Shown here: in pieces, positions 1,805 to 26,619 of the stretch | Layout of the letters: each line of letters opens with the position of its first letter | How positions within the stretch are numbered: the first letter of the stretch is position 1 | Source: a virus | IMG/VR virus record: IMGVR_UViG_3300043446_000327 | Coordinates: 1-27,102 of that record | Length of the DNA stretch: 27,102 nucleotides | Direction: 5' to 3' (one strand) | Program-made: the position numbers and the translations under genes | The notes under the pieces: model-generated | The model's database searches: none | The model's input: the letters and a program-made list of their open reading frames with translations, nothing else | Told to the model about the DNA's origin: nothing

Positions 1805-2830
1805 TTACCCCACCATTGTTCCGTTAGCATCGTACATATTGCCATCAATATCGGTATAAGCAACTTCAGGAGAAACCATGCCGCCATCGGCTTTACCAAC
1901 AGGCCGTGCGCCACCAGTAAAGTCGTAAGTTGGGCCTAAGCTGTCGCCGGTGCCAATTAAACCCAATAAACTACCTAACAAGTTGCCGCTACCGCCACTA
2001 GTAGTAGTTCCGCCCTGACCGCCAAACGAACCTAACGCCGCTAACAAGCCAGTTATCTGAGCCAGCGGGCTTGTCGCGTAACCGGTAGAGCCGACTACTT
2101 GTTTAGTCGCAGTCGTGGGGATTGCATAGCCCTGCATTAACTTGGCAAAAGTTTGAGCGTTTAACAAGGGTTGGTCTAAAACCTTTTGGCCCAACTTTTG
2201 TTCTTCCGTGCCAAGATCAAACATAGTCTTTAGCCCTTCTCGACCAATACGCTGCTGAGCCTCACCTAAAGCACCTAAAGACTGACCAGCCAGCGCTTGC
2301 CGATTTAAGTCAGAACCAGCCGTTGATAAAGCATTTTTATAGCCTTCTGACAAAGCGGTATATTGTTTACCCAATAAATCAGCTTGTAGGTCTCTTAAAG
2401 TCTGTCCCGTGACCTGTGCAGCTCTCTGGCTTCCGAACTGACCTGTACCTGCTGCACCAGCTCGAAGGTTCGGCAATACGTTCTCTTGGATACCACGCTG
2501 CTGCAGACGACTCATCTCGCTCACTACATTTTGCATGTAGGGATCCATATATTGACCGACCAGCGCAGATGATGGAGTCGCGCCAGCAGCAGTTAAATAC
2601 TGCTGACCTGTGCCTGCAGTTCCTGATCCAGCAAACGCCACTTCAGGAGCCAAAGACAGTGCTTGAGCCTGTAGCGGACTAAAGCCTGCAACACCCCCCT
2701 GCTGGATGCCTGCCGTGCCAAGATTGGCAATATCCTGCAGATAGTTAGTATAGAACTCAGGCGCAGAAGTAGCGTCAGTTGTTGTTGCAACGGTTGCCGG
2801 TAGGGGCGCACCTTGAAATATATCTGCCAT
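1805..2830 (-). CDS. Internal/ejection-type virion protein
   Basis: The 341-residue product starts at the ATG at 2830, with GGAG seven bases upstream. It is rich in Ala, Gly, Gln and Ser. The core (about 90-215) is probably helical and holds YMDPYMQNVVSEM and AGTGQFGSQRAAQ. I associate that arrangement (DPY-x-QNVV followed by FG-S-R) with a family of small internal or ejection proteins encoded next to large ejection proteins in tailed phages. Residues about 255-300 are a Gly/Leu-rich low-complexity segment that could insert in a membrane. The C-terminus carries KADGGMVSPEVAYTDIDG, one of the GG motifs found in several genes here. It lies between the HNH gene and the next large internal protein and is co-transcribed with both. 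Function is inferred from context and pattern only. Confidence 0.7.
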   Translation of the reverse strand: MADIFQGAPLPATVATTTDATSAPEFYTNYLQDIANLGTAGIQQGGVAGFSPLQAQALSLAPEVAFAGSGTAGTGQQYLTAAGATPSSALVGQYMDPYMQNVVSEMSRLQQRGIQENVLPNLRAGAAGTGQFGSQRAAQVTGQTLRDLQADLLGKQYTALSEGYKNALSTAGSDLNRQALAGQSLGALGEAQQRIGREGLKTMFDLGTEEQKLGQKVLDQPLLNAQTFAKLMQGYAIPTTATKQVVGSTGYATSPLAQITGLLAALGSFGGQGGTTTSGGSGNLLGSLLGLIGTGDSLGPTYDFTGGARPVGKADGGMVSPEVAYTDIDGNMYDANGTMVG

Positions 2831-2832
2831 TT

Positions 2833-3321
2833 TTAGGCTCCATCAAATTTATTGCATTTTTTCACATTCTCAATCCAAGGAATTACTTGAAGATTTGATG
2901 GAACGTGAAGGCCAGAAACATTTTTTCCTCTAACTGGAATTATGTGATCAACGTGCCACAAAAACCCTGTCATTTTTGTTCTTAAAGAAGCCAAGTCATA
3001 AATTTCTTTTATCATCCACAAGTCGTTTTTTGAGAGCCACTTTGGCGTTCTTTGCAATTTTGCTTGTTGATATTTTGATTCATAAAAAGACCTCATGTAT
3101 TTTTTATTTACAAACCAGTCCTTTGATCGCTTTCTTCTGTTTTGCTTTTCCTCTTCCGATTCTTGATCCCTTTGTTTTTGTGACTTCAACGCTCTACAGG
3201 CCAAACAAGATTTACATTTTACGTGCCTTAAAGAAACATGCCCATACTTACAAGGAACGCCAGTGAAGTAATGCGTTTCGCCTTTTTGCATGGCTTCATA
3301 TCTGGCACCTCTTTTAGGCAC
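2833..3321 (-). CDS. Free-standing HNH endonuclease
   Basis: A 162-residue protein. The GTG start at 3321 is supported by AAGGAG six bases upstream, inside the 3' end of the preceding gene; the two genes overlap by 8 nt. Residues 24-42 form a probable zinc knuckle (Cys24, His28, Cys36/Cys39/Cys42). A Lys/Arg-rich basic helix (45-95) would contact DNA. The nuclease core is at 120-157: WHVDHIIPV (His123, Asp125, His126), then PSNLQVIPWIENVKKCNK (Asn143, Asn152, Asn157). This is the usual layout of small phage HNH nucleases, which often act as homing or intron-like selfish genes and sometimes help packaging. Its base composition is low: row 3061-3120 has 16 G/C of 60, against about half in neighbouring structural genes. 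Placement in the middle of the ejection-protein genes, far from any terminase, favours a mobile nuclease. HNH identity is near certain; the role is inferred. Confidence 0.92.
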   Translation of the reverse strand: MPKRGARYEAMQKGETHYFTGVPCKYGHVSLRHVKCKSCLACRALKSQKQRDQESEEEKQNRRKRSKDWFVNKKYMRSFYESKYQQAKLQRTPKWLSKNDLWMIKEIYDLASLRTKMTGFLWHVDHIIPVRGKNVSGLHVPSNLQVIPWIENVKKCNKFDGA

Positions 3322-5731
3322 GGCTTGCTCCTTTCATCTTCTTCTGTGCCGCTGCTAGATAAGCTAACGGACTCTTACTCGGTGGCGGTATCTTATTCAC
3401 AGGAGCCGACCGCTTATGTTGTCTAATTTCTTCGCGGAATTTGTCTAGCATCTGTGACCCAGCCTTTGTAGAACCATTACCTAATTGAGCGACGGTGTCT
3501 GCATCAAATACATATTCGCCGTCCGCTAACATCGCAGGGATGTCATCCGATTGACCATCTCCCGGCCCTGTTACTGCTGAACCCTGACGGTAGTCTTTGC
3601 GGCCTTGAACGATAGGGGCGTTATCAGCATGATGTACGCCACCATGAGCTAGTCCACCATAAGCCATGCCGTTCTCATTACCAAGGTAATCCAATGGGTC
3701 AACACTCTGACCATAAGTGTAGTAGGCAGCACCACCGTCAGCCATAGGCGTTGGCATGATGGTATTCAGGGGGCGCGCTAGAGGGTTAACCATGCCTTCA
3801 GTCGGCGTGAAGCTCGTCATCGGGGTTTGACTGGCTCTCAGAGCTCCTACATTGATTGGGCTGCTAACCGCTGAGGGAATCTCTGGTAGCGACGCATACT
3901 GACGGTATGGAGCAAACCTTGCAGGGCCTACCATCGTTGTCCTTGGAGGAATAACACCTACTTTAGACATATCAATGCCCTTGTAGGCGTTCGCCGCCTG
4001 AGACTGCGCCTGAGCATTAAGTAATTGGCTAATCAGTGCACCAAACAAGGCACCTCGAACTGGCGTAGATCCAAGCAATGTATCTAAACCAGAAGTGATT
4101 TGAGAAAAACCACCGTCAGCAAAATGGGGAACCATACCGCCCTCTTTCATTAAAGGGGTCGCAAGACCACCGTTTTTTGACAATATATTTTTAATGCCGC
4201 CGCCAACATCCGAAAAGCCTTGAGATGCAACTTTTGTTGCCCCTCCCAAAATGTCACCAATCGCAGAAAACGTATTATTTTGAGCACCCGGCAAAAAAGA
4301 TGATATGACTGATCCGAGCAAAGCCCCAGTCAAAGGATCAACTGTAGAGTTACTTGTCGGAATAAACGGTTGCGGCTCAGTAGTCTTTTGTTGACCCGAT
4401 CCTGCTTGAGTTATTGTGTATGGCTGGAACCCCAGCATTGCAGGCGTTTCACCAATAGTAGTCGGACGCTCCTGTGGAAAGGCCAACCCACGGAAGTCCC
4501 CAACAGTTCCAACAACATCAGGAGGCGGAGGTGGCTTTACTTGGTCAGGCTGTACAGTGTTTGGATTGTAAAACCCCAATCCAGAAGTAAAAATATTTTT
4601 TAATTCTTGATCAATTGGAATTTGAAGTTGTGTAAATAAATTATTTTTTATGTCATCCGCAGTCATAAATGTGCGGATTGGCTTCCCAGTTAATGGGTCA
4701 ATTGTTAAATTTTTCTGAGTAAAAGGAAACTTGATGCCCAATTCTTTCGCCACTTCTTCTTGTAAAAGTGTCGATGGATTAATATTTTTTCCTGTTGTGA
4801 GCCTTGCTTTATCTACAATTTTTTGACGGGCAGCAGATTCTGCCATCGCAAGAGATGCATCCGCGTCTTCACCAACTTGCACGCCAAGCGTATCCAAAAC
4901 TACGGAAGCCTTTGGATTTGCTAAAAGCGAATACAGCGTGTTTGCTTTGGGGTCTTTGCTGCCGGTAATTGCTCTAAATTGCTCAGGGCTAGAAATTGCC
5001 TGCAAAATTTTGTCTGCATCTTTTTTTCCTAACGCGCCAGACTCTTGTGCAAGATTTACCGCTTGCCTAACCCTGTCAGGCTGCAATACATCATTTCCAG
5101 CAAAAACCTTAAACTTCCCGTCCGGTGTATAGCCACTATATGCAGGCTGCTCCGTAATAGGATTTACAAATTGTATATATTGCCCAGCCGCAGTTTGAGA
5201 AACATTTGGCGTGGCTTTAGCTTTTTCAATTGCGGTTTTTGTTTTTTTGCCTGTTGAAGAAACAGGTTCATCAAAAATATATGGATTGTCTACCGCATAC
5301 ATTCCAGAATATGGATCTGCTCGAAGCGCCTCACTTGTAATGTTTAAAAAACCTTGAGGATTATTTTTAATCGCTTCAACATCAACGCCAGCGGCGCCTC
5401 CTTTGATGGCATCTGCAAGCTCTTTTGAGTTTTTTAACTCAACATCTTCTTTACCAAGCCAATACTGAGCTCCAGCTTGATCTGGGTCTCTACCAAAATT
5501 TTTTCGATAAGCAGAAACGACGTTTTGAACGTCGTAGTTATATCCTTCAGTTGAGCGGTCTATTTCTTCGGCAATTCGTTGTGGAGTTTTGCTGCCAGAG
5601 GAAAGCTCGTTTTTATAAAAATTAAGTCCAGCCTCATCAGGTTCTCGCCCTAGTTGCTCTATATAAATTTGTTTGACGGCGTCTTCTGCATCTCCGCCGC
5701 CAGCCATGTGTACAAGTGCGCCACGTTTCAT
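3314..5731 (-). CDS. Large ejection-type protein with DUF4214-like repeats and tape-measure-like C-terminus
   Basis: An 805-residue product; its ATG overlaps the stop of the upstream gene (ATGA). The N-terminus holds two DUF4214-like repeats: about 17-58 (IYIEQLGREPDEAGLNFY) and 69-105 (AYRKNFGRDPDQAGAQYW). The middle is polar and Pro/Gln-rich, with several KEGGMVP, ADGG and AYGG motifs between about residues 525 and 705. The C-terminus (about 720-765) reads GPGDGQSDDIPAMLADGEYV then ends basic. That SD-IPA-LxDGE pattern is one I know from the C-termini of phage tape measure and related internal proteins. Rows inside the gene at 4561-4680 have 34 G/C of 120, while its 3' part is near or above half (32 of 60 at 3841-3900), so the gene looks like a mosaic. 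Probable role: an internal protein expelled with DNA to form a channel or scaffold. No enzymatic motif is seen. Confidence 0.75.
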   Translation of the reverse strand: MKRGALVHMAGGGDAEDAVKQIYIEQLGREPDEAGLNFYKNELSSGSKTPQRIAEEIDRSTEGYNYDVQNVVSAYRKNFGRDPDQAGAQYWLGKEDVELKNSKELADAIKGGAAGVDVEAIKNNPQGFLNITSEALRADPYSGMYAVDNPYIFDEPVSSTGKKTKTAIEKAKATPNVSQTAAGQYIQFVNPITEQPAYSGYTPDGKFKVFAGNDVLQPDRVRQAVNLAQESGALGKKDADKILQAISSPEQFRAITGSKDPKANTLYSLLANPKASVVLDTLGVQVGEDADASLAMAESAARQKIVDKARLTTGKNINPSTLLQEEVAKELGIKFPFTQKNLTIDPLTGKPIRTFMTADDIKNNLFTQLQIPIDQELKNIFTSGLGFYNPNTVQPDQVKPPPPPDVVGTVGDFRGLAFPQERPTTIGETPAMLGFQPYTITQAGSGQQKTTEPQPFIPTSNSTVDPLTGALLGSVISSFLPGAQNNTFSAIGDILGGATKVASQGFSDVGGGIKNILSKNGGLATPLMKEGGMVPHFADGGFSQITSGLDTLLGSTPVRGALFGALISQLLNAQAQSQAANAYKGIDMSKVGVIPPRTTMVGPARFAPYRQYASLPEIPSAVSSPINVGALRASQTPMTSFTPTEGMVNPLARPLNTIMPTPMADGGAAYYTYGQSVDPLDYLGNENGMAYGGLAHGGVHHADNAPIVQGRKDYRQGSAVTGPGDGQSDDIPAMLADGEYVFDADTVAQLGNGSTKAGSQMLDKFREEIRQHKRSAPVNKIPPPSKSPLAYLAAAQKKMKGASRA
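3328..3333 (-). promoter_or_regulatory. Ribosome-binding site of the HNH gene
   Basis: On the minus strand this reads AAGGAG, six bases before the GTG at 3321-3319. It decides the non-ATG start of the HNH gene and lies within the last codons of the upstream gene, so the HNH gene brought or acquired its own initiation signal without breaking its neighbour. Confidence 0.7.
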
Positions 5732-7650
5732 GTTGAACCCCTTAGTGCGCCCAATCCGCCGACAAATGTTCGTCTGGGAGTGGTCATTTCAATCCATTTT
5801 TCAATTGGAATCATTATATTTGTTTGCGGGAAAATATCGGCAACAGTTAAACCTCTTCTTAACCCGCCTTGAGGCTGTTGTTGCTGTTGTTGACCGCCTG
5901 AAACTATGTCAGACAAGTCTTTGGCTTTACCCAAAACATCTTTGGCTTTGTCGATGAGAGATGTGCCGCCCGTTGGCGTACTCGGGAGATACCACTCTGG
6001 CGCTTTAATGCCTACCATCCCTTTGCCAATCTGCTCGGCACCAGCGCCTATCTTAGACCCAATGTTAGGAGCCAAACCTTGGTTTGGAGGTATCTTTAAG
6101 CCACCAGCACCACTTCCAGCCCCGCCCGGAACCGTTGGCATCTTCAATCCGCCGCCCAACATTTCAGTGCCACCGCCTGCGGGTAGTCCCGGCATCGTAG
6201 GCGTTGAAAAGATATTTGTCGGAATCGTAGTGCCAGCATATCCCGGCGTTGCCGCGCCTACGGATATAGGAAATCCAGCGGCTCCAGTTCCAACCGAGGT
6301 TCCAAATACCGCCTGATTCCAAGCCGCAGGCGTAGCGCCAGCCGCAAAGTTATACGTCGGGCCTAGTGAGCCTAGCGTTCCTCCAGCCCCCGCAGCTCCT
6401 GCGCCCCCTAAGACTTGGCTTAAACCATACGCCCCTAACATCACGCCGCCTGCAGCCAGCAGGAACTTCATGAACGTATTGTCATGAGTGTGGTTGTAGT
6501 ACGTCTGGTAGTCACCAGCGACTTTGTCTACCTTCTTAGCGGTTACGTTCGCTATGTCATTAGGGTCTGCCCCTAATTCAATCGCCCGATTTGAAATGTC
6601 TTTGTACCGCTGAGCTAAAGCCGCTAACTTGTCTTTGTTCGCCCCAGATTCAGTCACGCCGGGGTCGATGTTCTGCTCTAACCAGTTATTGACATAAACC
6701 CCAGCAGCAGCATCTTTCATAAACCCCGCAGGATCTTTGGCATAAGCCTCAACCGCAGCCGCAGGGCCGTACAACTCAACCATCCGTTTAGCTTTTTCTT
6801 CATCCGTAAACGCCGCTGTTCCCGCCTTAGAGAACCACATCGCAGTTACAGGGATGTCGTACAGGTCAGCGCCTGAATGAACATCATATTCAGACGGGCT
6901 GTCGCCGCCAAAGATGCCAGATTCAAAGGCGATCGGCTTCATGAGGTTTAAACCCTCCATGCCAGCCCGATTGTCTTGGTAAGGGTTTCTTAGCTGAGCT
7001 AACGCAGAAAAGTCGTCAGGCAGCTCTATGCCCCTCTCAGCGGCATAAGCACGCGCCTGCTCATCAAACTTTGAGTTGATGTACTGCTGAGCCTCTGGCG
7101 ACCAACCCACTTCTTCGATCCGCTTAGGATCCATCTTGAAGTCGTAGTTAGTATCGACTAACTTCTGCTCACGACGAGACTGCTGCCCCATTACATCCTG
7201 ACCTTTAGGGGGCTCGGCTTCAAACTGCGTTAAGTAGTTTCGGTACGCCTCTTCATCTGGTAACCGACCAAGGTAGTTCTTGTAGACTCGGACTAAATTG
7301 GCTTCTGGCAACTTCATCAAATCGTTACGCAGAACCGACGGTTTAAAGTCCAGACGTTGGGCTTGCTCTCTTGAGCCCATCGTCATCGGCTCATAGTTGA
7401 AATAGTCATCCATCGACTGGATGCGCTGCATTTCACTCTCGCTTGGGCCTCGACCTAAGACGTTCTGGAACTGCCGAGTAATCTGATCTTCTGGGGTTAG
7501 GCTCTTGTACTCGTCTGAACTTGTAATCGTGCTAACAAGCTGCGAACGATCAATATCCTGCCCTACGAGGTCGGCAATAGCCCCCTCATCTGGGTCGCGC
7601 CCTAGATAGCTTTGGTAGACGTAATTAACGTCGGATCTTGTTAGAGGCAT
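5728..7650 (-). CDS. Large internal virion protein with three DUF4214-like repeats
   Basis: A 640-residue product starting at the ATG at 7650 in a TAATG junction. Three N-terminal copies of a DUF4214-like repeat are visible: 7-48 (VYQSYLGRDPDEGAI), 57-80 (FQNVLGRGPSESEM) and 118-143 (VYKNYLGRLPDEEAY). Residues about 165-385 are charged and largely helical. At about 394-417 a hydrophobic stretch (FMKFLLAAGGVMLGAYGLSQ) could be a membrane segment. The C-terminal third is Gly/Pro-rich, with a six-Gln run near 578-583. The next gene begins with the same repeat type and overlaps by 4 nt, so the two are likely partners or products of duplication. Probable internal/ejection protein, by position after the nozzle gene and by composition. 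The exact family is not recognised. Confidence 0.7.
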   Translation of the reverse strand: MPLTRSDVNYVYQSYLGRDPDEGAIADLVGQDIDRSQLVSTITSSDEYKSLTPEDQITRQFQNVLGRGPSESEMQRIQSMDDYFNYEPMTMGSREQAQRLDFKPSVLRNDLMKLPEANLVRVYKNYLGRLPDEEAYRNYLTQFEAEPPKGQDVMGQQSRREQKLVDTNYDFKMDPKRIEEVGWSPEAQQYINSKFDEQARAYAAERGIELPDDFSALAQLRNPYQDNRAGMEGLNLMKPIAFESGIFGGDSPSEYDVHSGADLYDIPVTAMWFSKAGTAAFTDEEKAKRMVELYGPAAAVEAYAKDPAGFMKDAAAGVYVNNWLEQNIDPGVTESGANKDKLAALAQRYKDISNRAIELGADPNDIANVTAKKVDKVAGDYQTYYNHTHDNTFMKFLLAAGGVMLGAYGLSQVLGGAGAAGAGGTLGSLGPTYNFAAGATPAAWNQAVFGTSVGTGAAGFPISVGAATPGYAGTTIPTNIFSTPTMPGLPAGGGTEMLGGGLKMPTVPGGAGSGAGGLKIPPNQGLAPNIGSKIGAGAEQIGKGMVGIKAPEWYLPSTPTGGTSLIDKAKDVLGKAKDLSDIVSGGQQQQQQPQGGLRRGLTVADIFPQTNIMIPIEKWIEMTTPRRTFVGGLGALRGST

Positions 7651-11255: not shown

Positions 11256-11257
11256 GA

Positions 11258-11893
11258 TTAACTATCCAATGCAACGGCTTGACGGTCACCCATACGCTGG
11301 ATGTCTTCAGCCTTCAAGACCTGCATGATCTTGTCGTACTGAGCCTGCCACATCGGTATGCGCTCGTCGTTCTTGAGGAATGGCATTGCTTGGAGTAACG
11401 ATCCATACAGCAACGCCTGCGGTGCATAAATCGTGAACCAGTTCGTCTGGTTCGAGGAATCTAGCGGCTGGATACGCTCGTAGTACAGCACCTCAAAGTT
11501 GTAAGCAACATCAGGGGTGGGAGCGATTAACCAGTGGGTGTAGTCGTAATCTGCGTAGTATCTCGGAGCACCTGTGTCTGTAGGGTCAGGCCAATACTCA
11601 CGCAGATATTCGTATTTGCGCAGGAATACAGGCTGTCTGACGCCCGCTACGGTCACGTTCATAGATACAGTCTTGTGCCACCGTGCAGGCTTGTCTATGA
11701 CCGCCTGATTAGCTACAAGGGTAGATGTCATCGGCGTTAGGTTGCCGAGAAACTTAATCTCCGCAGCAATCACCTGCTCTGCCAGCATGATGAAAGTCGG
11801 AATCTTTTCCAGCGTCGCTTGGTCGGTACGCTCTAGATAGCTTGATATGTCGGCTACCAAGCTCGAATACGTCATTACGGCTGCTGTCGTCAT
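11258..11893 (-). CDS. Head-to-tail adaptor (T7 gp11 / SU10 adaptor-like)
   Basis: A 211-residue product. I choose the ATG at 11893, which overlaps the upstream stop (TAATG) and has AAGGTG five bases before it; a GTG at 11899 would add two residues. The N-terminus (YSSLVADISSYLERTDQAT then FIMLAEQVIAAEIKFLG) is the helical start of the tail tubular protein A / SU10 adaptor group. The middle has PARWHKTVSMNV and FLRKYEYLREYWPDP, and the end has YAPQALLYGSLLQAMPFLK with a C-terminal helix. These proteins form a dodecameric ring under the portal that receives the nozzle. Its location two genes upstream of the nozzle candidate supports this. The length is close to the family's usual 190-220 residues. 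Confidence 0.85.
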   Translation of the reverse strand: MTTAAVMTYSSLVADISSYLERTDQATLEKIPTFIMLAEQVIAAEIKFLGNLTPMTSTLVANQAVIDKPARWHKTVSMNVTVAGVRQPVFLRKYEYLREYWPDPTDTGAPRYYADYDYTHWLIAPTPDVAYNFEVLYYERIQPLDSSNQTNWFTIYAPQALLYGSLLQAMPFLKNDERIPMWQAQYDKIMQVLKAEDIQRMGDRQAVALDS

Positions 11894-12285
11894 TACCACA
11901 CCTTTTTCTTGATAGATTCAGGCTGCGGGACGAATTGTTTGCCTTGTCGTGTACCCTCTCTCTTGGCACGGGTCGTAGCACCGTACTCGGCAGGAGTTAA
12001 TTTTTCTCGGGCTTGTTTCGGCAAATATCGTTCGCCTGTCGCCTCGGAACCTTGTGTGGACGGCTTACCAGACTTTGTGCCCCAGTCTTCTTTTGTCCAC
12101 TTTGCAAGTGAATTATCGGCCTTTTTTGCGCCTTTGTAACCCCCTCCCGAGGCTTTATATTTCTGCGTTGCTAACTGAGCTTTGCGGGCGCTCCATTCCC
12201 CCGGATCACCCCCCTTACCAGAGGCTTTCACGGAGGCAACAATACGCTTCCACTTAGCCGGATCAGACTTAACGGCGCTGCTCAT
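11893..12285 (-). CDS. DUF5872-like small basic protein
   Basis: A 130-residue, strongly basic product from the ATG at 12285; the gene overlaps the end of Rz by 17 nt. Sequence features are DPAKWKRIVASVKASGKGG, WSARKAQLATQKYKASGGGY, NSLAKWTKEDWGTKSGKPS, then GERYLPKQAREKLTPAEYGA and a Lys-rich end finishing in Trp. I recognise this as the DUF5872-type domain, which is widespread in phages, large viruses and some bacteria and has no known function to my knowledge. The conserved Trp and Lys/Gly content suggests nucleic acid or protein binding, but that is inference. It sits between the lysis genes and the adaptor. Confidence 0.8.
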   Translation of the reverse strand: MSSAVKSDPAKWKRIVASVKASGKGGDPGEWSARKAQLATQKYKASGGGYKGAKKADNSLAKWTKEDWGTKSGKPSTQGSEATGERYLPKQAREKLTPAEYGATTRAKREGTRQGKQFVPQPESIKKKVW

Positions 12286-13739: not shown

Positions 13740-13744
13740 CACCG

Positions 13745-13750
13745 CTCCTT
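13745..13750 (-). promoter_or_regulatory. Ribosome-binding site of the holin gene
   Basis: AAGGAG on the minus strand, overlapping the TAA stop of the upstream gene. Spacing of five bases to the ATG at 13739 (against two to the GTG at 13742) favours the ATG. A paired GTG-ATG start could still give two holin forms. Confidence 0.6.
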
Positions 13751-14605: not shown

Positions 14606-14612
14606 ATCCTAG

Positions 14613-15452
14613 TTACCACGACCAAATAAATACAGCACCATCACCGCCGCGACCACCAGCGCCGCCAATAGTTGTTCCTCTACCACCACCACCGCCGCCA
14701 CAGCCAGTGCCGCCGCTTCCGCCGCTTCCCCCAGCAGCCGTACTATTTCCACCGCCGCCAGAACCACCAACGCCAACCATTATTGGAGACGCAATAAAAT
14801 AACCAGCTACACCATTTCCACCCGTTATTCCAACTCCGCCAGAAATACTTGGGTAGCTGTAATTTGGGGCGTTAGAATATCCAGTGGTTCCTGTCGTTGA
14901 AGCTCCACTAGCGCCGCCAGTTAAAAAAATAGTTGCAGATCCGGTTTGGTTTGCGTTTCTTGTGCCATCTTGCCCCGCCGTTGAAGAAAATATTCCACAC
15001 GCGCCAAAAAAATTATTTGCAAAAACAACACCCCCAGCGCCAACAACAGTAGTAGCACTACCCCCTCCGCCACCATTTGCTGTTAATAACGTATAACCAG
15101 TACCATCTTTTTGTTGGTATATAACAGAACTATTACTACCACTCGCGCCTGCATTTGGCGTTGATGTTGATGATCCAGCGCCACCAGCGCCACCCGCTCC
15201 TAAAGACACGCGCAATATATCTGGAATAAAAATAGCTGGGCCTATCCACTCTGTAACAGCCCCCGAACCTCCCCCATTACAACCGCTTGTTGTGCCTACA
15301 CCACCACCAGAACCACCACCGCCAGCGCCAATCAATAACATCCTTACCATTGACGCGCCGCGAGGCTTGACCCAATCGCGTGTAGATCCGCCACCATAAA
15401 ATTCTTGGTAATTGCTTTGCTGCGGAGAAGGAAAATTGAATACGTCTAGCAT
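14613..15452 (-). CDS. Glycine-rich receptor-binding-like protein, third paralogue
   Basis: A 279-residue product, ATG at 15452. The N-terminus MLDVFNFPSPQQSNYQEFYG leads into RDWVKPRGASMVRMLLIGAG, the core shared with the two genes upstream. Then come long Gly-rich runs (for example GAGGAGGAGSS and GGSGGSGGTGCGGGGGGRG), GSGAVTEWIGPAIFIPDILR, a tail segment GYFIASPIMVGVGGSGGGG, and the end GGDGAVFIWSW. Dense glycine with short beta strands suggests polyglycine-II type packing, as in the gp38 adhesin of phage S16, or the Gly_rich_2-type domain of tail proteins. It is the last and most glycine-rich member. Probably tip adhesin; receptor unknown. Confidence 0.7.
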   Translation of the reverse strand: MLDVFNFPSPQQSNYQEFYGGGSTRDWVKPRGASMVRMLLIGAGGGGSGGGVGTTSGCNGGGSGAVTEWIGPAIFIPDILRVSLGAGGAGGAGSSTSTPNAGASGSNSSVIYQQKDGTGYTLLTANGGGGGSATTVVGAGGVVFANNFFGACGIFSSTAGQDGTRNANQTGSATIFLTGGASGASTTGTTGYSNAPNYSYPSISGGVGITGGNGVAGYFIASPIMVGVGGSGGGGNSTAAGGSGGSGGTGCGGGGGGRGTTIGGAGGRGGDGAVFIWSW

Positions 15453-15456
15453 CGCG

Positions 15457-16245
15457 TCACCATGTGATTATTACTACGAGGCCATCACCGCCTCTTGACC
15501 CGTAGGTGAGGTTGCCTGTACCACTACCCGTTCCACCACCACCACCACAACCAAAATGACTTGTACTGGTTCTAGATGGATTATTTGCTCCCGTAGAGGC
15601 AAAAGTAGATGTGGGCGCTCCAACGCCTACGATTATGGGCTGGAACTGAAAATAACCGTTCGTATTTTGCGGAACTGAGTAACCATAATTACTAGTCCGA
15701 GTCGATGTGGCATTCCCACCGCTAAGAAATGTCGTACCACTTACAGTATCAAGCGCTCCACTGTCACCGATCTGACCAGCCACCGACTGGAACAACCCCA
15801 TGCAGGAAAAATAATTAGATGCAGATGCAGCACCACCCGGGCCACCACTTCCGGCGGTTGATTGAACACCATTTGTACCTGATTTACCAGCTGATGCCTG
15901 CAATAATAAGTAGGTGGATTTTGACACGTAATTTACGGTCGTATCTGTGCCATCGGACGTCGCTGCACCTTGACCATCAATGCCGCCCCGTCCAACGGAA
16001 ACCTGAAGAACGTCTGGTATTAAAAACGCTGGAACCATACAATTCGTTACCGCGCCAGAACCGCCACCGCCACCGTCTGCCGTTCCGTTGCCAGCGCCAC
16101 GACCACCAGCGCCACCAGCGCCTATCAAAGTGAACCAAACAAACGACGCACCTTGGGGCTTGACCCAATCGGACGTTGCTCCGCCTACATTGAATATTTG
16201 GATGTTTGCGCCCTGCGGCGTTGGGTAATTTATTGGGTAGCTCAT
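15457..16245 (-). CDS. Glycine-rich receptor-binding-like protein, second paralogue
   Basis: A 262-residue product. I choose the ATG at 16245 (MSYPINYPTPQGAN), in a TAATATG junction; a TTG at 16260 would add five residues. It shares the core TSDWVKPQGASFVWFTLIGA, GSGAVTNCMVPAFLIPDVLQ, GYFQFQPIIVGVG and the end RGGDGLVVIITW with its neighbours. Glycine-rich loops (GAGGAGGRGAGNG, GCGGGGGTGSGTG) alternate with short strands. Central parts diverge strongly from the other two copies. Same likely role as its paralogues: an interchangeable tip that sees a surface receptor. Confidence 0.7.
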   Translation of the reverse strand: MSYPINYPTPQGANIQIFNVGGATSDWVKPQGASFVWFTLIGAGGAGGRGAGNGTADGGGGGSGAVTNCMVPAFLIPDVLQVSVGRGGIDGQGAATSDGTDTTVNYVSKSTYLLLQASAGKSGTNGVQSTAGSGGPGGAASASNYFSCMGLFQSVAGQIGDSGALDTVSGTTFLSGGNATSTRTSNYGYSVPQNTNGYFQFQPIIVGVGAPTSTFASTGANNPSRTSTSHFGCGGGGGTGSGTGNLTYGSRGGDGLVVIITW

Positions 16246-16246
16246 A

Positions 16247-16915
16247 TTACCAACTCGCAATCAATGCAAAACCGGGTCCACCCACAGTTGAGTTTCCTGA
16301 TCCTCCGCAACCTATAGCAGTGCGATCAGAGCTGTTGTCGCCAGAAGCTACACCTACAATAATTGGTTGAAAAATAAAATAACCTAATCTGGTACTACTC
16401 GTATAACCATAACCATAGTTTGCCGTCACTGTTGCAGTTGTAGTTCCCGAAGACAAAAAAGTTGTTGCCGATGGAGTTGCATTACCACTAACGCCAGCTA
16501 TACCATCCGTGCTTTTGTAAAAACCAGATGAGGCAAATGAAGTTGCAGGGGACAAATTGGCGCCGCTAGTGGAGCTCGATGAATTGGCAGTTAAAAGACT
16601 TACTAACCCACTAGATGACCTATATGCTACTACTGTCTCATAACCATTTGAATTAGCTCCGCGCACATAAATTGCCAATGAGTCAGGAACATTTTGCGCC
16701 GCCCCGTACCAAACGGTAACAGCTCCGCATCCACCACCAAAAGTTCCATTTCCGTTTCCACCCCCGCCAATTAAAAGCATATAAACATGGCTTACCCCGC
16801 GAGGTTTATTCCAAGTCATGTAATTTCTGTCGGTAATTGTGCCCTGATTTCCAAAACCATAAAAATTTTGAATATCACAATTCTGCGGCTTAGCGATGTT
16901 AAAGACATCAAGCAT
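16247..16915 (-). CDS. Glycine-rich receptor-binding-like protein, first paralogue
   Basis: A 222-residue product. The ATG at 16915 (MLDVFNIAKPQNC) has AGGAG about five bases upstream and is preferred to the upstream in-frame start at 16939. It shares MLDVFN with the third copy, and WNKPRGVSHVYMLLIGGGG, GCGAVTVWYGAAQNVPDSL, GYFIFQPIIVGVA and the end IASW with the group, but has fewer glycine runs and an extra loop near residues 20-35. It directly follows a 64-residue gene. Divergence from the other two suggests old duplication or import. Probable adhesin, same reasoning. Confidence 0.7.
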   Translation of the reverse strand: MLDVFNIAKPQNCDIQNFYGFGNQGTITDRNYMTWNKPRGVSHVYMLLIGGGGNGNGTFGGGCGAVTVWYGAAQNVPDSLAIYVRGANSNGYETVVAYRSSSGLVSLLTANSSSSTSGANLSPATSFASSGFYKSTDGIAGVSGNATPSATTFLSSGTTTATVTANYGYGYTSSTRLGYFIFQPIIVGVASGDNSSDRTAIGCGGSGNSTVGGPGFALIASW

Positions 16916-16917
16916 AT

Positions 16918-17112
16918 TTACTCCTGTGGCACATACCAACTAGGTGCGGCAGCGTTATCGTTTACGCAGGTGTACTCCACATTCTCTTCACCCAAAGGCG
17001 TACCGTCAGCACGATAAACGCCTATGTACGATCCTGACGAATCCAAATGCGCATATCCATCAGAACCGTCTGAGAACTGAAGCAAAAACCAGCTATCAGT
17101 ATCGCGCCACAT
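16918..17112 (-). CDS. Small aromatic-rich protein of unknown function
   Basis: A 64-residue product, ATG at 17112 in a TAATATG junction with the upstream stop. It is rich in Trp, Tyr, Asp and Ser: DTDSWFLLQFSDGSDGYAHL and IGVYRADGTPLGEENVEYTC. Tight packing between flanking genes and lack of a better frame support it as real. It may be a small fibre-linked or adhesin-chaperone protein, given that it precedes the glycine-rich genes. I do not recognise a family. Confidence 0.6.
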   Translation of the reverse strand: MWRDTDSWFLLQFSDGSDGYAHLDSSGSYIGVYRADGTPLGEENVEYTCVNDNAAAPSWYVPQE

Positions 17113-17113
17113 A

Positions 17114-17554: not shown

Positions 17555-17564
17555 AATTTACTCC

Positions 17565-21738: not shown

Positions 21739-21740
21739 AG

Positions 21741-22811
21741 TTATCTCGAATAAACTGCGATATTCGGCGCCATATACACAGGCGACTTGTCGCGCTCTTC
21801 AGACTGCGCCAGCATCAGGTACTTCTCTGCCTGCGCCTCTAAATACTGAATCCTCGCCATATCAATGCCCGGCAACTCCATCGACATCTGGTGCGCCAAC
21901 ATGTTCTGAATAGCTAAGTACCAGCGATCAGGTATCTCTAGCTGCCCATTTAACGCCCCTACGTCCATAATCTGCCGCGAGTAGTACACGACAATCTGAA
22001 CAAAAGGGTCGCTAGGCACAGGCCAAAGATTAATCTGCGGTCTTGGAATAGTGCGGTTGAACCAGAACTGATACGGCTGGTTAGCAGTAAAGTTCTTATT
22101 CGGCAGCGAGACGTAATCATCACGGTTTAGACGCGCCATCGGCACTTCTCGGCTGTTATTACCGACGTAGAACTCTCTGACCTGCAGCGTATTGCCGCCA
22201 GTCTCGCGCATCCGATACCATTGCTTTGTTTGACCGGGCTCGATTTGATACCAAAGCCACTCGTTATCGACCCAAGTTTCTACTCCGGTGTCTTCGAGTA
22301 GCTCCCATGTCGAACCGTCATCGGAAACTTCCAAAAGGATGTGAAAACTTCCTGACACTCCCGGAAGAATACCAATAGAGCCAGCGTAAATAGGGTTGTC
22401 AGTGCCATAATCCACCGCTATGTAACCGTTAGGGGATGTCTGAATATCGACGGTGTTCACATTCCCATCAAATGCATTCTCAACCACACCAGATGATGCG
22501 TAATATGCGCCCGTTATGTTAGGAACAGGCCGAGCCATTGTGCGATAGTTGGCATTTAGGACGTCAATACCGCCTAAAGGCAGCTCATAGATGTACTGAT
22601 CGGCTTTTAGACCGATAACTTCTTGCCCAATCGCCCAATAATTGATGCCGATATTGGCTAAATTGGATAAAAGATAGAAAAGAGACTGTTTGGCAGAGTA
22701 AATTTGCTCAGAAGTCAGCTCTTCAGCCAACTTTCCAGAGCGTCGCGCTCCGTGATCGATCAAATCCTGTACCGGAATAATAGTCTGACCGATAGTGCCT
22801 GAGTAAGCCAT
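21741..22811 (-). CDS. Neck/adaptor-like protein with inserted discoidin (F5/8 type C)-like domain
   Basis: A 356-residue product from the ATG at 22811, with GGGGAG just upstream. Residues 1-94 are helical (LIDHGARRSGKLAEELTSEQ, SLFYLLSNLANIGINYWAIG), then GLKADQYIYELPLGGIDVL. Residues 225-356 (RLNRDDYVSLPNKNFTANQP, IPRPQINLWPVP, ending in a helical stretch MARIQYLEAQAEKYLMLAQ) complete a fold that resembles phage head-tail adaptor/stabiliser proteins. Between them, about 95-220, lies a discoidin-like domain: VVENAFDGNVNTVDIQTSPN, YIAVDYGTDNP, FHILLEVSDDGSTWELLEDT and QWYRMRETGGNTLQVREFYV. Such domains usually bind glycans or lipids. It would form part of the neck, with the discoidin facing outwards. 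Confidence 0.75.
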   Translation of the reverse strand: MAYSGTIGQTIIPVQDLIDHGARRSGKLAEELTSEQIYSAKQSLFYLLSNLANIGINYWAIGQEVIGLKADQYIYELPLGGIDVLNANYRTMARPVPNITGAYYASSGVVENAFDGNVNTVDIQTSPNGYIAVDYGTDNPIYAGSIGILPGVSGSFHILLEVSDDGSTWELLEDTGVETWVDNEWLWYQIEPGQTKQWYRMRETGGNTLQVREFYVGNNSREVPMARLNRDDYVSLPNKNFTANQPYQFWFNRTIPRPQINLWPVPSDPFVQIVVYYSRQIMDVGALNGQLEIPDRWYLAIQNMLAHQMSMELPGIDMARIQYLEAQAEKYLMLAQSEERDKSPVYMAPNIAVYSR

Positions 22812-22820
22812 GTGCTCCCC

Positions 22821-23108
22821 TTACCACTTTGGGCATTTAGATGATCTTTTTTCGCCTGTAGACATCTTGGTAGTAGCCTTGCCGCCTTTTTTCATGCCCT
22901 GACCAGTACCCTGCGCAGGTTCTTGCGAGGTTTCTGAGTAAGGGCGGAAGTCATTACTTGCTGGCGCAAACTGCGTTGACTGAGCCAATCGATCACTCAT
23001 AGCGCCCATGTTTCCCGCAGTGCTGCCGGGAACACTTACTGATGATTGCTCACCATCAGTCACAAGGCTGCTTAGCCCACCCATTGCCATCTTTTTAGCT
23101 TTTTTCAT
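22821..23108 (-). CDS. Small basic protein with Lys-Gly-Gly motif and Pro-x-Trp end
   Basis: A 95-residue product if started at the ATG at 23108, which has GAGG seven bases upstream; an upstream in-frame start at 23168 would overlap the previous gene. The N-terminus is MKKAKKMAMGGLSSLVTDGE, the middle is Ser/Ala/Gln-rich and polar, and the C-terminus is MKKGGKATTKM followed by GEKRSSKCPKW. The MKKGG motif and the final Pro-x-Trp recur in the two genes upstream. No enzymatic signature. It may be a small virion or scaffold-like protein. Confidence 0.65.
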   Translation of the reverse strand: MKKAKKMAMGGLSSLVTDGEQSSVSVPGSTAGNMGAMSDRLAQSTQFAPASNDFRPYSETSQEPAQGTGQGMKKGGKATTKMSTGEKRSSKCPKW

Positions 23109-23115
23109 GTTTACC

Positions 23116-23826
23116 TCACCATCTAGGCGAACTTTTTGACTTCTGTGCAGTAGAAACGCCGCAAGCATCTAGGTTTATCTTGCCGCCTTTGGTGTATTTT
23201 TTCGCCTCACCGCCTTTTTTCATCATAGACGCATTATTCTGACCAAGCTGCTGCAAACCTTGCACACGCTGAGCAAATGGCATATTTAATTGTTGCTTAC
23301 TTACAAAATCATCACCTTGTTGAGCTTTCGGCAAAGATTGCAAGCCCTGTCTTATTTTTTCAACATCGATACCAGCGGGAGGCTTTGCATTTGGGTTTAT
23401 GCCGCCCAATGATCCTTTCTTTGCAAACTTCTCATAAGGATCAATGCGACCTTCATATAAATTTTTACCACTAACAGATTGTGGCTTTGCGGGAGGCATT
23501 ACTTGTGGCTTATTAGCTCCACTAGCCTGACGAAATGCATCTCCATAGGCTTTCTGTAATCCATAGGCTTTCTGTAATTCACTCTGATTTATTTGCGGCT
23601 TCACGGAAGGCATGACTTGTGGCTTTAGAGGTTTACCTAAACCACCCATAGTCGGCTTTGGTGGAACCTTAGGGGCTGGCAAAGGAGTTGAAGGTTTCGG
23701 TGGAACTTTAGGCCCACTACCACCTCTAGGCCCGTAAAACTTCGCATCTTGCTGCTTTATGTAATCATTTATTTGCTGATTGGTCATGCCACTAGCCTGC
23801 ATACCGCCAATATCATAACTGCTCAT
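23116..23826 (-). CDS. Proline/glutamine-rich protein with Lys-Gly-Gly motif and Pro-x-Trp end
   Basis: A 236-residue product from the ATG at 23826, with AAGGAG six bases upstream. Its start is SSYDIGGMQASGMTNQQIND. Then comes a Pro/Lys-rich spacer (PPKPSTPLPAPKVPPKPT), repeats of KPQVMP, and a perfect tandem duplication of LQKAYG (about residues 83-94). The C-terminus reads MMKKGGEAKKYTKGGKINLD and ends SSPRW. Largely disordered by composition. The MKKGG and Pro-x-Trp ends tie it to its two neighbours. Function unknown. Confidence 0.65.
   Translation of the reverse strand: MSSYDIGGMQASGMTNQQINDYIKQQDAKFYGPRGGSGPKVPPKPSTPLPAPKVPPKPTMGGLGKPLKPQVMPSVKPQINQSELQKAYGLQKAYGDAFRQASGANKPQVMPPAKPQSVSGKNLYEGRIDPYEKFAKKGSLGGINPNAKPPAGIDVEKIRQGLQSLPKAQQGDDFVSKQQLNMPFAQRVQGLQQLGQNNASMMKKGGEAKKYTKGGKINLDACGVSTAQKSKSSPRW
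23543..23578 (-). repeat. Perfect 18-bp tandem duplication inside the 236-residue gene
   Basis: The plus-strand unit ccataggctttctgtaat occurs at 23543-23560 and again, unchanged, at 23561-23578. It is in frame and duplicates six codons (LQKAYG). Identity of the copies suggests a recent replication-slippage event. Confidence 0.9.
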
Positions 23827-23841
23827 AATCTTCTCCTTAAC

Positions 23842-24246
23842 TTACCAACCGGGACAATTCCAGCGCTTCATCGAAGCGCGCGCTCGACTACCTTTTTCAC
23901 TCTTCTCAGCAACAGGCCCCATACGCGCACAAAAAGAATCCCTCCGCTTGCCACCTTCAGGCTGCGGAGCCTTCAAGTTGCTGCCAGTCTCGCGGTTGTA
24001 CTTCGCTCTTCCCTTAGCCGTTAGCCCAGCGCCTTGCTCAGCAGGCAACTTCTCACCCCTGCCAATAGCCAAACTCACGCCACCCTTCTTCATTGCTTCA
24101 GGAAGTTTGCCGTAAGCCTTCTTGCCGACGTTAGACTCAGTGAACTCTTTAGCAACATCCTCAGATATGCCAACCTTCTTAGCAATCTTAGGGTTGTACT
24201 GAGCCGCCTTCATCAAGCGGAACTGAGCTTTAGACTTGGCTGGCAT
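23842..24246 (-). CDS. Small basic protein with Cys/Trp C-terminal domain (DUF6321-like)
   Basis: A 134-residue product if started at the ATG at 24246, two bases after the upstream stop and with AAGGCGAG before it; the longer frame from 24321 begins with an unlikely Cys-rich stretch overlapping the upstream gene. The N-terminus PAKSKAQFRLMKAAQYNPKI is helical. MKKGGVSLAIGRGEKL follows, and the C-terminal half (GLTAKGRAKYNRETGSNLKA, then RRDSFCARMGPV and SMKRWNCPGW) matches a phage domain I recall as DUF6321. Two Cys and the final Trp are notable. No enzymatic function is known to me. Neighbours are other small GG-motif proteins. Confidence 0.75.
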   Translation of the reverse strand: MPAKSKAQFRLMKAAQYNPKIAKKVGISEDVAKEFTESNVGKKAYGKLPEAMKKGGVSLAIGRGEKLPAEQGAGLTAKGRAKYNRETGSNLKAPQPEGGKRRDSFCARMGPVAEKSEKGSRARASMKRWNCPGW

Positions 24247-24248
24247 GA

Positions 24249-24797
24249 TTAACTCGCCTTCAATAACAACGCAGCAAAGTTTGCATCGCTTACTGTAATT
24301 GCAGTGCCAGCAGTTGCACATGCTGCCTGAACAATTACATCATCTCCAGCAGCCACCGTTACAAACGCCGATACCGCTACAAACATAGGGTCTACAGAAT
24401 GCGAATGCGACTTTACGACTGTATTTAAGTAAGGCGTATTCGTTGTGCTGTTCAAACAACGAAACGTAAATGTTTTGTTATTTGAGTCAGTAAACGTAAT
24501 AAAAAACTGAACTAGATACTGCCCAGCAACATCAAAGGTAATCTTATTGCTGGCAGCAACAGGAGTCATATTGTTTGACAGCCCATCTGTTGTAAACGCG
24601 GTTAACGTGTAAAACTGATTTGCGTTTGTCAGCGTCTGAGAAGTCGTTCCGCTTGCAACGTAAATCTCAGCATAAGTTGCAGCGGTTAATGTGTATACGT
24701 TTGTTTGAACATTTGCCCCACTTTGAACAAGAGGAACAAGCTCCGCGCCTGTCAGCGTAGTAGCCGATGGCATCGCTGAAATCTTCTGATCTGCCAT
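24249..24797 (-). CDS. Short fibre-like protein with C1q/TNF-like head
   Basis: A 182-residue product from the ATG at 24797 (TAATG junction, GGAGG seven bases upstream). N-terminal 40 residues (KISAMPSATTLTGAELVPLV then QTNVYTLTA) match the start of the long fibre, so this is likely the virion-docking part. The rest looks like a jelly-roll: NKITFDVAGQYLVQFFITFT, KTFTFRCLNSTTNTPYLNTV, and SAFVTVAAGDDVIVQAACAT. This resembles C1q/TNF-like heads used in phage fibres. It could be a short fibre or head decoration. Confidence 0.7.
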   Translation of the reverse strand: MADQKISAMPSATTLTGAELVPLVQSGANVQTNVYTLTAATYAEIYVASGTTSQTLTNANQFYTLTAFTTDGLSNNMTPVAASNKITFDVAGQYLVQFFITFTDSNNKTFTFRCLNSTTNTPYLNTVVKSHSHSVDPMFVAVSAFVTVAAGDDVIVQAACATAGTAITVSDANFAALLLKAS

Positions 24798-25036
24798 TAC
24801 GAAGCCTCCAATACGATCTTGTCGTTATTCTCCTGAAGCACATAGCCCGGAGAAGATTCATCGGCAATGTAGAAAGTAGTCACTGGTGTAGCGCCATACA
24901 CATCAACCACACCATCGTCGCCAACGTCTAAGCCAAAGTCAGTGCCGCCAATTACATTCTGCGCACCAACGCCCAAAGCAAATCCATCGCTGGTATTCGC
25001 TTGGTTAGCAACGGAGCTGTAACCAACCTTTCCCAT
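24797..25036 (-). CDS. Small acidic virion-like protein
   Basis: A 79-residue product from the ATG at 25036, overlapping the upstream stop by 1 nt (TAATG). Gly/Asp/Val-rich: GFALGVGAQNVIGGTDFGLD then VGDDGVVDVYGATPVTTFYI. Probably beta-structured. It lies between two other small putative virion proteins. No family is recognised; coding potential is supported by tight spacing on both sides. Confidence 0.55.
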   Translation of the reverse strand: MGKVGYSSVANQANTSDGFALGVGAQNVIGGTDFGLDVGDDGVVDVYGATPVTTFYIADESSPGYVLQENNDKIVLEAS

Positions 25037-25338
25037 TAAATGCCTGCCTGAAGTAACTTCAGCGTTGCAGTGCCATCACCGCTGTTTACTAGCACCTTAA
25101 TGCCAGTCACAGGGAATGCGTAGTTGCCGTCAGCGTTTGCCGCTTGACTTGCTACCGTCGGATGAGAAAACCAAGTGCTAAATCCCACCGCAGGGTCATC
25201 AAAAGTATGCTGAACGGTGTAATCAACCGTGCCAGTCACAATCACACCAAAGCCCACATTAAATGGGCTGATGTCTGTATTCATTACGAGGGCGCTGCTG
25301 CTGCCCACTCCGGTCTTTGAAACAGTCTGAAGTTTCAT
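25036..25338 (-). CDS. Small beta-rich virion-like protein
   Basis: A 100-residue product from the ATG at 25338. Sequence: LQTVSKTGVGSSSALVMNTD, FGVIVTGTVDYTVQHTFDDP, and GIKVLVNSGDGTATLKLLQA. The pattern of a Val/Thr-rich sandwich with an 'SGDGTATL' type strand is common in small decoration-like phage proteins. It is the first gene after the hairpin-bearing gap. A role as capsid decoration is possible but unproven. Confidence 0.6.
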   Translation of the reverse strand: MKLQTVSKTGVGSSSALVMNTDISPFNVGFGVIVTGTVDYTVQHTFDDPAVGFSTWFSHPTVASQAANADGNYAFPVTGIKVLVNSGDGTATLKLLQAGI

Positions 25339-25359
25339 GTCAAAGCCCCATAAATGACA

Positions 25360-25375
25360 GGGAGCCGAAGCTCCC
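25360..25375 (-). terminator. cUUCGg hairpin in the largest intergenic gap (possible attenuator or weak terminator)
   Basis: In the 45-nt gap between two genes, the minus strand reads GGGAGC-TTCG-GCTCCC: a 6-bp stem with a C(UUCG)G tetraloop, a very stable RNA loop. It is not followed by a strong T-run in the minus direction (TGTCATTTATG follows). In the plus direction CGCCGTTTTT follows, but there are no plus genes ending here. It may dampen transcription, protect mRNA ends, or act as a processing site between the upstream and downstream genes. A true terminator is less likely. Confidence 0.55.
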
Positions 25376-25383
25376 CGCCGTTT

Positions 25384-26619
25384 TTAACAAGCACCACCGT
25401 AGCGCTTTTTCAACGGAGTAACCGTTACAGACTCTTTTGTCTTAGTGACGCTATCGCCTGCTGGTTTTCTGCCAAACATCTCTACGGCCTTGTCATAAGC
25501 CTCTTTGAGCATGTCTAGCGGGTTCATCGCCTGCTCAAGCTCTCGTTGATACTTTGGGGTATCTTCGTAGGCTTTTTGCATAGCTTTCCGTTGCTTATCT
25601 TCTGCTACGTCAGCAGGACCGCCCTCTAAATACTTCTTCACAGAGCCACCTTTTTTATAGGTGCCAGAGAGACGGTTAATGCTGACAGGGGTGGGCGGCG
25701 ATTTCTGAGGCATCTTTTCAGCCTTGCCTGAATCGTTTACCGATCCACCCCTAGCAAACTTTTTTGGGGCACCGCCCTTCTTGTAGCCACCAGCATTGCC
25801 TTTGCGAACACTACCAGTTGTCGTGCCACTTACGCCCGGAGGTGTAGTGCTGACGTTACCTTCAACGCCGCCACCTTTAGCATAAGTTGCTGGCTTGTTA
25901 ATAGCCTGCGGCAGAGGACGACGAGGGCCAACAACAGGTCTACCGGCGCCAGCATCGTTAGGGCCGGTGCCGCGAGTTGGGCGGGGAATCGCACTAACAG
26001 GCTTATTAATAGCCTGCGGCAAAGGCATCCTACCGCCCATAGCCATCTTGACCTTACCGCCCTTCTTATAACCACCAGCGTTACCCATCTTCACGCCACC
26101 AGTATTGGCAGGTGAACGATCAGGCTTCGTTGTGTGCATTTTGGTCTCAGCATAGCCCTCAGCGCCTCTCTTCGAAGCACTCACAGGAATGACGCTGCCG
26201 CCATCCTTGTAGCCACCCTGACCCATTGCAACACCACCGGTTTTCAGACCCTTATGAGCTTTGGAAGCAGGCATAGACTCGTGTTTCTTGAGCTCTTTTG
26301 CCGTGCCTTCCATCTTCTTCATTTCGGCCTTGTGTTCAGCAGCGCTTTCGCCACCTTCAGCCATCTTCTTGCGACCCATCATCGCTTTGCGACGAGCAGC
26401 CATTGAAGGTTTTGCAGGACTCGGGCCACCAACAGGACCCGGAGGTAGGCCAGCACGAGCGAGGACTCCCGGCATACCGCCGTCAGCCATCTTCTTGTGA
26501 CCCGATCCGTGATCTTTAGCCTTCATCTTGGGCATAGCTACATGCCCACCCTTTTTGAGCTTCAGCTCGATGCTGGGCTCAGTGGTGTACATCTTCACCA
26601 TCGGTTTGAATTGGCCCAT
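25384..26619 (-). CDS. Basic Lys-Gly-Gly repeat protein
   Basis: A 411-residue product. The ATG at 26619 (MGQFKPMVKMYTTEPS) has a perfect AGGAGG six bases upstream; the longer frame begins with TTG and is unlikely. The protein is low-complexity, rich in Lys, Gly, Met and Pro, and strongly basic. GG motifs recur: LKKGGHVAMP, ADGGMP, MAEGG, GGYKDGGSV, NAGGYKKGGKVKMAMGG, NAGGYKKGGAPKKFARGG, TYKKGGSVKKYLEGG. PLPQAINKP occurs twice. The last 80 residues are more charged and helical, ending KKRYGGAC. It may bind DNA, RNA or acidic virion proteins, given charge and repeats. No known family. Confidence 0.7.
   Translation of the reverse strand: MGQFKPMVKMYTTEPSIELKLKKGGHVAMPKMKAKDHGSGHKKMADGGMPGVLARAGLPPGPVGGPSPAKPSMAARRKAMMGRKKMAEGGESAAEHKAEMKKMEGTAKELKKHESMPASKAHKGLKTGGVAMGQGGYKDGGSVIPVSASKRGAEGYAETKMHTTKPDRSPANTGGVKMGNAGGYKKGGKVKMAMGGRMPLPQAINKPVSAIPRPTRGTGPNDAGAGRPVVGPRRPLPQAINKPATYAKGGGVEGNVSTTPPGVSGTTTGSVRKGNAGGYKKGGAPKKFARGGSVNDSGKAEKMPQKSPPTPVSINRLSGTYKKGGSVKKYLEGGPADVAEDKQRKAMQKAYEDTPKYQRELEQAMNPLDMLKEAYDKAVEMFGRKPAGDSVTKTKESVTVTPLKKRYGGAC
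25892..26023 (-). repeat. Duplicated segment in the Lys-Gly-Gly repeat gene
   Basis: Plus-strand ggcttgttaatagcctgcgg at 25892-25911 recurs with one change (ggcttattaatagcctgcgg) at 26000-26019, and the similarity continues a few bases on. Both copies encode PLPQAINKP. Near them the NAGGYKKGG-coding segments also recur. This is an imperfect internal duplication spaced by 108 bp, a multiple of three. Confidence 0.75.

Follow-up and report, generated by a model that had tools for sequence, protein, structure and literature searches.

Encapsulin targeting peptides are short, often C-terminal sequences carried by unrelated proteins, which they recruit to an HK97-fold shell. In bacteriophage T4, a short N-terminal peptide shared by IPI-IPIII and Alt, the capsid targeting sequence, brings these late proteins into the head and is removed by the prohead protease. 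Here we describe a short motif, [Tyr/Phe/Met]-[Ala/Lys]-x-Gly-Gly, and the C-terminal tails that stand behind it, in late proteins of an uncultivated tailed phage and its relatives; motif and tail may together act as an address label for the assembling particle. The DNA analysed, hereafter the window, is the 27.1-kb virus record IMGVR_UViG_3300043446_000327 (27,102 nucleotides), a late-gene block in which all convincing genes lie on the minus strand. An earlier note, made from the letters of the window alone, had reported a Lys/Asp-Gly-Gly peptide recurring in six otherwise unrelated proteins, with sorting, packaging, protease processing or nucleic-acid binding as its possible role.

As with encapsulin cargo-loading peptides, the tail found in a related clade is a C-terminal peptide common to unrelated proteins (80 of 81 open reading frames (ORFs) and at least 51 clusters of protein bodies, among the matches listed), and a gene for an HK97-fold-type capsid is found on the same strand as the tagged genes, about 1-3 kb away. 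The consensus is different, however, and here an internal repeated motif is combined with a clade-specific tail, in tailed phages, with putative binding to the shell. The resemblance to T4 lies in a short common peptide on unrelated late proteins; the T4 signal is N-terminal, whereas the motif and tail are internal or C-terminal, and the part of the capsid block examined yielded no recognisable protease. We do not claim membership of either system; by analogy, the motif and tail would work like them.

One class of carriers consists of large proteins whose gene adjoins the portal gene, a location for which packaging and injection of polyvalent proteins have been predicted (PMC5512222, in the part available); the multidomain make-up is partly shown for the carriers here. 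That part of PMC5512222 describes no shared Gly-Gly (GG) motif or C-terminal tag, however, and most of the carriers here are small. The C-terminal region of the lambda tape measure protein gpH, HFATGGFTG...KYEPAGIVHRGEFVF, also has F/Y-A-x-GG before a related-looking glycine-rich stretch, but lambda has two copies only and lacks the small tagged proteins. As to the ejection proteins of podoviruses, a 341-residue protein of the window matches a PHROG DNA-ejection family, and an 805-residue protein lies in the same cassette; the available part of a review of such proteins (PMC8954989) mentions no shared short motif. Literature searches found no paper with the searched peptides in a relevant context, and none naming DUF6321.

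Results

We scored the pattern [YFM][AKTM]xGG against the expectation from composition-matched shuffles within each protein. All peptides quoted in the earlier note are present in the named minus-strand genes. The six named carriers together hold 19 copies versus 0.9 in shuffles (z 18.6), a density that sequences of the same composition do not reproduce, and the remaining window proteins together hold 1 copy versus 2.2. As the pattern was picked after inspection of the window, this count alone is not a fair test. A fairer one is provided by related sequences, many of which are akin to one another, so that their counts are not independent. In 156 related loci we found 1158 copies versus 153 in shuffles, and in a more distant group of 43 loci, fetched via the ejection protein alone, 192 versus 36.5 expected. 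In nine long related records the strand of the capsid gene held 107 copies versus 14.6 expected and the opposite strand 2 versus 1.7, a coarse split, since the capsid strand holds other genes too. In per-gene lists the carriers are mostly the named late genes and, as the reading in the earlier note requires, those in relatives are consistently late.

No excess was observed in the control genomes of lambda (2 versus 1.8), T7 (1 versus 1.3), HTVC010P (0 versus 1.1) and HTVC019P (0 versus 1.8). Isolates with related capsids were mostly motif-poor as well (Caulobacter phage RW, 4 versus 2.5; CRP-901, 2 versus 2.9; HTVC023P, 5 versus 3.3), so cultured material for testing is scarce. Taken protein by protein, the excess in the window is strong for the 411-residue protein (416 residues from an upstream start) and the 805-, 236- and 115-residue proteins, marginal for a 159-residue protein (p 0.04) and absent from the 341-residue protein, whose KADGG copy has neither an aromatic residue nor Met. 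The carriers are, for the most part, unrelated as had been proposed, except that the 236- and 115-residue proteins have a C-terminal tail in common.

Within carriers the copies are frequently paired, 7 to 9 residues apart. The codons of the GG pair vary (GGC GGC, 146; GGT GGC, 142; GGT GGT, 73; GGC GGT, 56; plus others), indicating that the motif is conserved at the protein level and is not a DNA repeat. An origin at the DNA level, through repeats, recombination or ribosome-binding sites, was generally rejected on this ground and also because GGA, which as the first GG codon would create AAGGAGG, is rare in that place (5 of about 530).

The conserved part of the motif was examined in an alignment of 30 relatives of the 411-residue protein, where the most frequent residue at the GG positions of the motif has a mean frequency of 0.86, versus 0.52 outside the motif. 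Y, F and M replace one another at -3, K or A stands at -2, and two sites have an unchanging V at +3; in general x-Val frequently follows the GG, and Ile also occurs at +3. Immediately before GG the residue is free to be K, D, E, T, Q or R. Charge was rejected as a conserved feature, given this variable residue and a sign that differs between families: the mean net charge round the motif is +2.2 in the 411-residue family (17-residue window), -0.66 in the 805-residue family, -0.03 in polyvalent-type proteins and -0.33 in distant ejection proteins. Hydrophobic and glycine positions are thus conserved while charge is variable, so the motif is not electrostatic; of the Lys/Asp-Gly-Gly form the GG part stands, and in place of the charged residue it is the Y/F/M and A/K positions that make up the core. 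AlphaFold2 predicts the 411-residue protein to be disordered (mean predicted local distance difference test score (pLDDT) 47.5), with the motifs as conserved islands outside its few predicted helices. The motif is often placed at module boundaries.

The motif of the small carriers begins some 24-29 residues before the C-terminus, with a common C-terminal tail right behind it. In the clade of the window, about eleven protein groups, including the 115- and 236-residue proteins, end in KGG...ST...SKKxPxW-COOH or close variants. A related clade has a different, 15-residue tail, R[G/A]DG[I/C]AxRGKT[R/K]Gxxx-COOH, and in one of its genomes the products of four adjacent genes all have RGDG(I)AxRGKT(R/K)Gxxx, or a variant of it, as their C-terminus. 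We scanned for this RGKT-type tag with degenerate DNA of the peptide, without requiring a stop codon; the figures that follow cover the matches listed. Of 81 ORFs, 80 have the tag as the end of the protein, and 68 of the 81 also have the core motif (3.8 expected), its start peaking 25-29 residues from the C-terminus, near the 24 and 26 residues of the window. The last three residues, although outside the search pattern, are constrained too: a basic residue, then M/F/Y/I, then V/C/I/L. With the last 45 residues removed, 92 tagged proteins fall into at least 51 clusters. Two or three such proteins occur together on 21 of 77 contigs, and the distance between the tagged genes and a capsid homologue encoded on the same strand is about 1-3 kb. 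In all, the tag was found on at least about 100 distinct small proteins (loci L307-L386, and L255/L256 of record G001). RGKT-type tails are basic, with a mean net charge of +4.7 over the last 20 residues. Neither clade's tail was seen in the other clade in the loci compared, the distant set being mostly ejection-region DNA. A tblastn search of cultured phages with 28-residue tail queries gave no match, weak evidence of absence at that length.

The carriers of the window and their conserved elements are listed in Table 1.

Table 1. Motif carriers and conserved elements of the window
Feature	Position	Strand	Evidence
411-residue basic protein, predicted disordered	25384..26619	-	9 strict copies versus 0.33 in shuffles
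134-residue modular protein (159 residues from upstream start)	23842..24246	-	Pfam DUF6321, E value 2.2e-14
236-residue protein with MMKKGG, YTKGG and C-terminal tail	23116..23826	-	Motif count and family comparison
C-terminal tail of 236-residue protein, YTKGGKINLDACGVSTAQKSKSSPRW-COOH, 26 residues from motif start to end	23119..23196	-	Common to unrelated proteins of relatives
115-residue protein with MAMGG, MKKGG; probable start at residue 21, MKKAKKMAMGG	22821..23168	-	Motif in 8 of 8 family members
C-terminal tail of 115-residue protein, MKKGGKATTKMSTGEKRSSKCPKW-COOH, 24 residues	22824..22895	-	Tail comparison
805-residue ejection/tape-measure-like protein, N-terminal DUF4214	3314..5731	-	5 strict copies versus 0.19 in shuffles
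Motif pair MKEGGMVPHFADGG of 805-residue protein	4109..4150	-	Every orthologue compared has MKEGG unchanged (a biased figure, see text) and the second copy as xxGG
Motif copies MADGGAAYYTYGQ and MAYGGLAHGG of 805-residue protein, directly before tape-measure-type domain	3653..3745	-	Orthologue comparison
341-residue DNA-ejection-type protein with relaxed motif KADGGMV (1880-1894) within its variable C-terminal tail	1805..2830	-	phrog_4287 DNA ejection protein, E value 1.6e-7

The 411-residue protein has about 9-11 copies in all (LKKGG, MADGG, MAEGG, YKDGG, YKKGG three times, YAKGG, FARGG and others). Conservation in the alignment of its relatives begins at M6 of the TTG-started, 416-residue ORF, supporting the start at 26619; this start and that of the DUF6321 protein at 24246, both given in the earlier note, are preferable. 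The DUF6321 match of the 159-residue form scores 54.3 bits, above the Pfam gathering cut-off of 28.5. The protein has two modules, with AMKKGG where they meet (24079-24093): an N-terminal one (MPAKSKAQ...), which matches PHROG virion structural proteins at their beginning, and a C-terminal DUF6321 module ending KRWNCPGW. In the family of this protein 74 of 131 members have the motif. The N-terminal module resembles a small phiKZ protein, PHIKZ165.1 (81% identity with the relative in locus L256), and in relatives a third module, GLYANIHAKRERIAEGSGEKMRKPGS, is inserted between motif copies.

The 805-residue protein has a tape-measure-type C-terminus, GPGDGQSDDIPAMLADGEYVF, with PHROG tape measure matches at residues 711-754. 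Peptide patterns were used to retrieve the orthologue sets. One pattern, MKEGGMVP, holds a motif copy and itself selected some of the orthologues, so the conservation of that copy is biased. Codons 526-535 of the gene (PLMKEGGMVP; 4127-4156, minus strand) show zero synonymous change in 9 distinct orthologues, whereas conserved codons across the gene differ in 51% of pairs. A degenerate scan for these codons returned only the same 11 contigs, and more distant relatives lack the feature. Within this stretch AAAGAGG lies 5 bases before an in-frame ATG, a possible internal start for a C-terminal product. The AlphaFold2 model of the protein (mean pLDDT 35.7) is unusable except for short stretches such as the N-terminal DUF4214 region, and a search for solved-structure relatives of the 411- and 805-residue proteins found none. 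Most orthologues of the 341-residue protein have one or two motif copies in the variable tail, in changing sequence, and several have the strict form (GYADGGMV, FAEGGEV, GYAKGGKVK).

Carriers in relatives comprise the 411-residue, DUF6321, 115-residue and 236-residue families, the ejection cassette and polyvalent-type proteins. The last are large (807 to 1273 residues), with tandem MAEGGAVDYESRFNEMLQKH repeats and partial Pfam and PHROG matches, and their gene immediately precedes that of the portal. The ejection cassette of distant relatives has three successive genes that each encode the motif.

Genes in the related loci are simple ORF calls. Longer related records have the order polyvalent-type gene, portal, GroES-like gene, scaffold-like gene, capsid gene and then the genes of the window; by comparison with these relatives, the window genes from 27080 downwards would sit just after the major capsid gene. 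Among annotated records, the nearest is MW202545, from an uncultured Manatee Spring phage. The capsid of the group matches Phage_capsid_4 and Mu-like gpT, and related capsids among isolates include those of Caulobacter, Roseobacter, Pelagibacter and Planktothrix phages. One relative was found inside a Betaproteobacteria metagenome-assembled genome, a weak hint of the host. In the window an HNH-endonuclease-like gene (2833-3321) lies between two ejection-cassette genes; in relatives the genes are instead of endonuclease VII type or GIY-YIG-like, and are located close to that of the capsid. Three neighbouring glycine-rich paralogues (14613-16939), probably of tail-fibre type, each have a terminal Trp. 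A 130-residue basic protein (11893-12285; phrog_14910, and a weak DUF5872 match below cut-off) again has a C-terminal Trp (SIKKKVW), and lacks the strict motif.

Discussion

With confidence just short of even, we propose from these sequence comparisons that the motif and C-terminal tag form a short linear signal that recruits late proteins to the assembling virion. The docking motif, [YFM]-[AK]-x-G-G-x-[VI], would be set in flexible parts of late proteins, and in the small proteins whose genes directly follow that of the major capsid protein, the motif and the clade-specific tail behind it would work as one unit. This unit would be recognised by a partner in the assembling particle (the capsid interior, scaffold or portal), and recognition would bring its bearers into the virion. 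The many-copy 411-residue protein may act as a multivalent adaptor or filler, and the same motif may bring the ejection and polyvalent-type proteins into the internal, ejected set. It is the locking of the tails to the C-terminus, on many unrelated bodies beside the capsid gene, together with the motif on ejection and polyvalent-type proteins, that looks like an address label for the particle and makes a sorting or packaging tag the best fit among the roles suggested in the earlier note. Packaging, the identity of the partner and ejection are what we infer from the position of the genes and the company they keep.

Several observations weigh against this proposal. Caulobacter phage RW (L159) shares 76% capsid identity with the group but lacks the small carriers, so the capsid alone cannot dictate the tag. 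As the tails of the two clades differ in sequence, one shared receptor is not implied. The literature search found no virion proteomics for any carrier, and the binding site on portal, scaffold or capsid proteins is putative. In phage RW unrelated genes occupy the place of the small GG carriers, and two motif copies are present in the tape-like gp066.

The motif might instead be a processing site, at or near which a phage or host protease cuts during assembly to separate modules of late proteins, an explanation that we consider unlikely and that retains its weight mainly because the sole two copies in lambda lie in gpH (residues 733-737 and 778-782; L297 10542-13103), about 116 and 71 residues from its end, and gpH undergoes proteolytic cleavage as the tail assembles (PMC3224144). 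Cutting after GG737 would yield fragments of 80.1 and 12.2 kDa, and the frequent location at module boundaries is also in line with processing. However, the cleavage site of gpH is unmapped in the papers cited, and residues 818-842 are still present in the virion tail tip (PMC10721106). Among the genes of the capsid block that were scanned, none was recognised as a protease, prohead protease included. Nine or more cuts in the 411-residue protein would leave small peptides, and the conservation of Val at +3 also speaks against a simple cleavage site. Sites of the adenovirus protease (adenain) are (M/I/L)xGG. This consensus was tried and rejected, as the register is off: position -2 is mostly A or K, and the hydrophobic residue stands at -3, one position further from GG.

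The presence of the motif in disordered regions and at module starts would suit a plain flexible linker or turn, GG being a common turn former, in which case GG hinges ahead of modules would have been spread by module shuffling and would have no binding partner. A plain linker does not need Y/F/M at -3, residues that mostly substitute for one another, or the Val at +3, however, and the C-terminal locking of the tails is left unexplained, so we regard this explanation as improbable. Lower still is the probability we give to nucleic-acid binding, in which small basic proteins with KKGG repeats and basic tails would condense or bind the phage DNA. The charges of the 411-residue family and of the RGKT-type tails agree with it, but the surroundings of the motif are negative or neutral in the 805-residue, polyvalent-type and distant ejection families, which disfavours such a role for the motif itself; moreover, D or E often precedes GG, and the conserved positions are hydrophobic and glycine. 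Nucleic-acid binding may apply to the basic tails, less to the motif.

The proposal of a recruitment signal can be extended, more tentatively and as a possibility on the doubtful side, to the abundant freshwater and marine phages of this capsid clade. They would have a modular address system, with a common [YFM][AK]xGG docking motif and interchangeable clade-specific C-terminal tags. Through it a large, fast-changing set of small proteins would be loaded into the virion, and ejection and polyvalent-type proteins would be directed to the same compartment. The papers found describe nothing of this kind. If the motif is a processing site instead, it would point to the position of the cut in lambda gpH. 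In environmental phages the small late genes mostly lack an assigned function. If the tag marks particle-borne proteins, dozens of unrelated hypothetical proteins per clade would become predictable virion cargo and possible injected effectors, and a tag that loads cargo could be used in the laboratory to load a reporter into a capsid.

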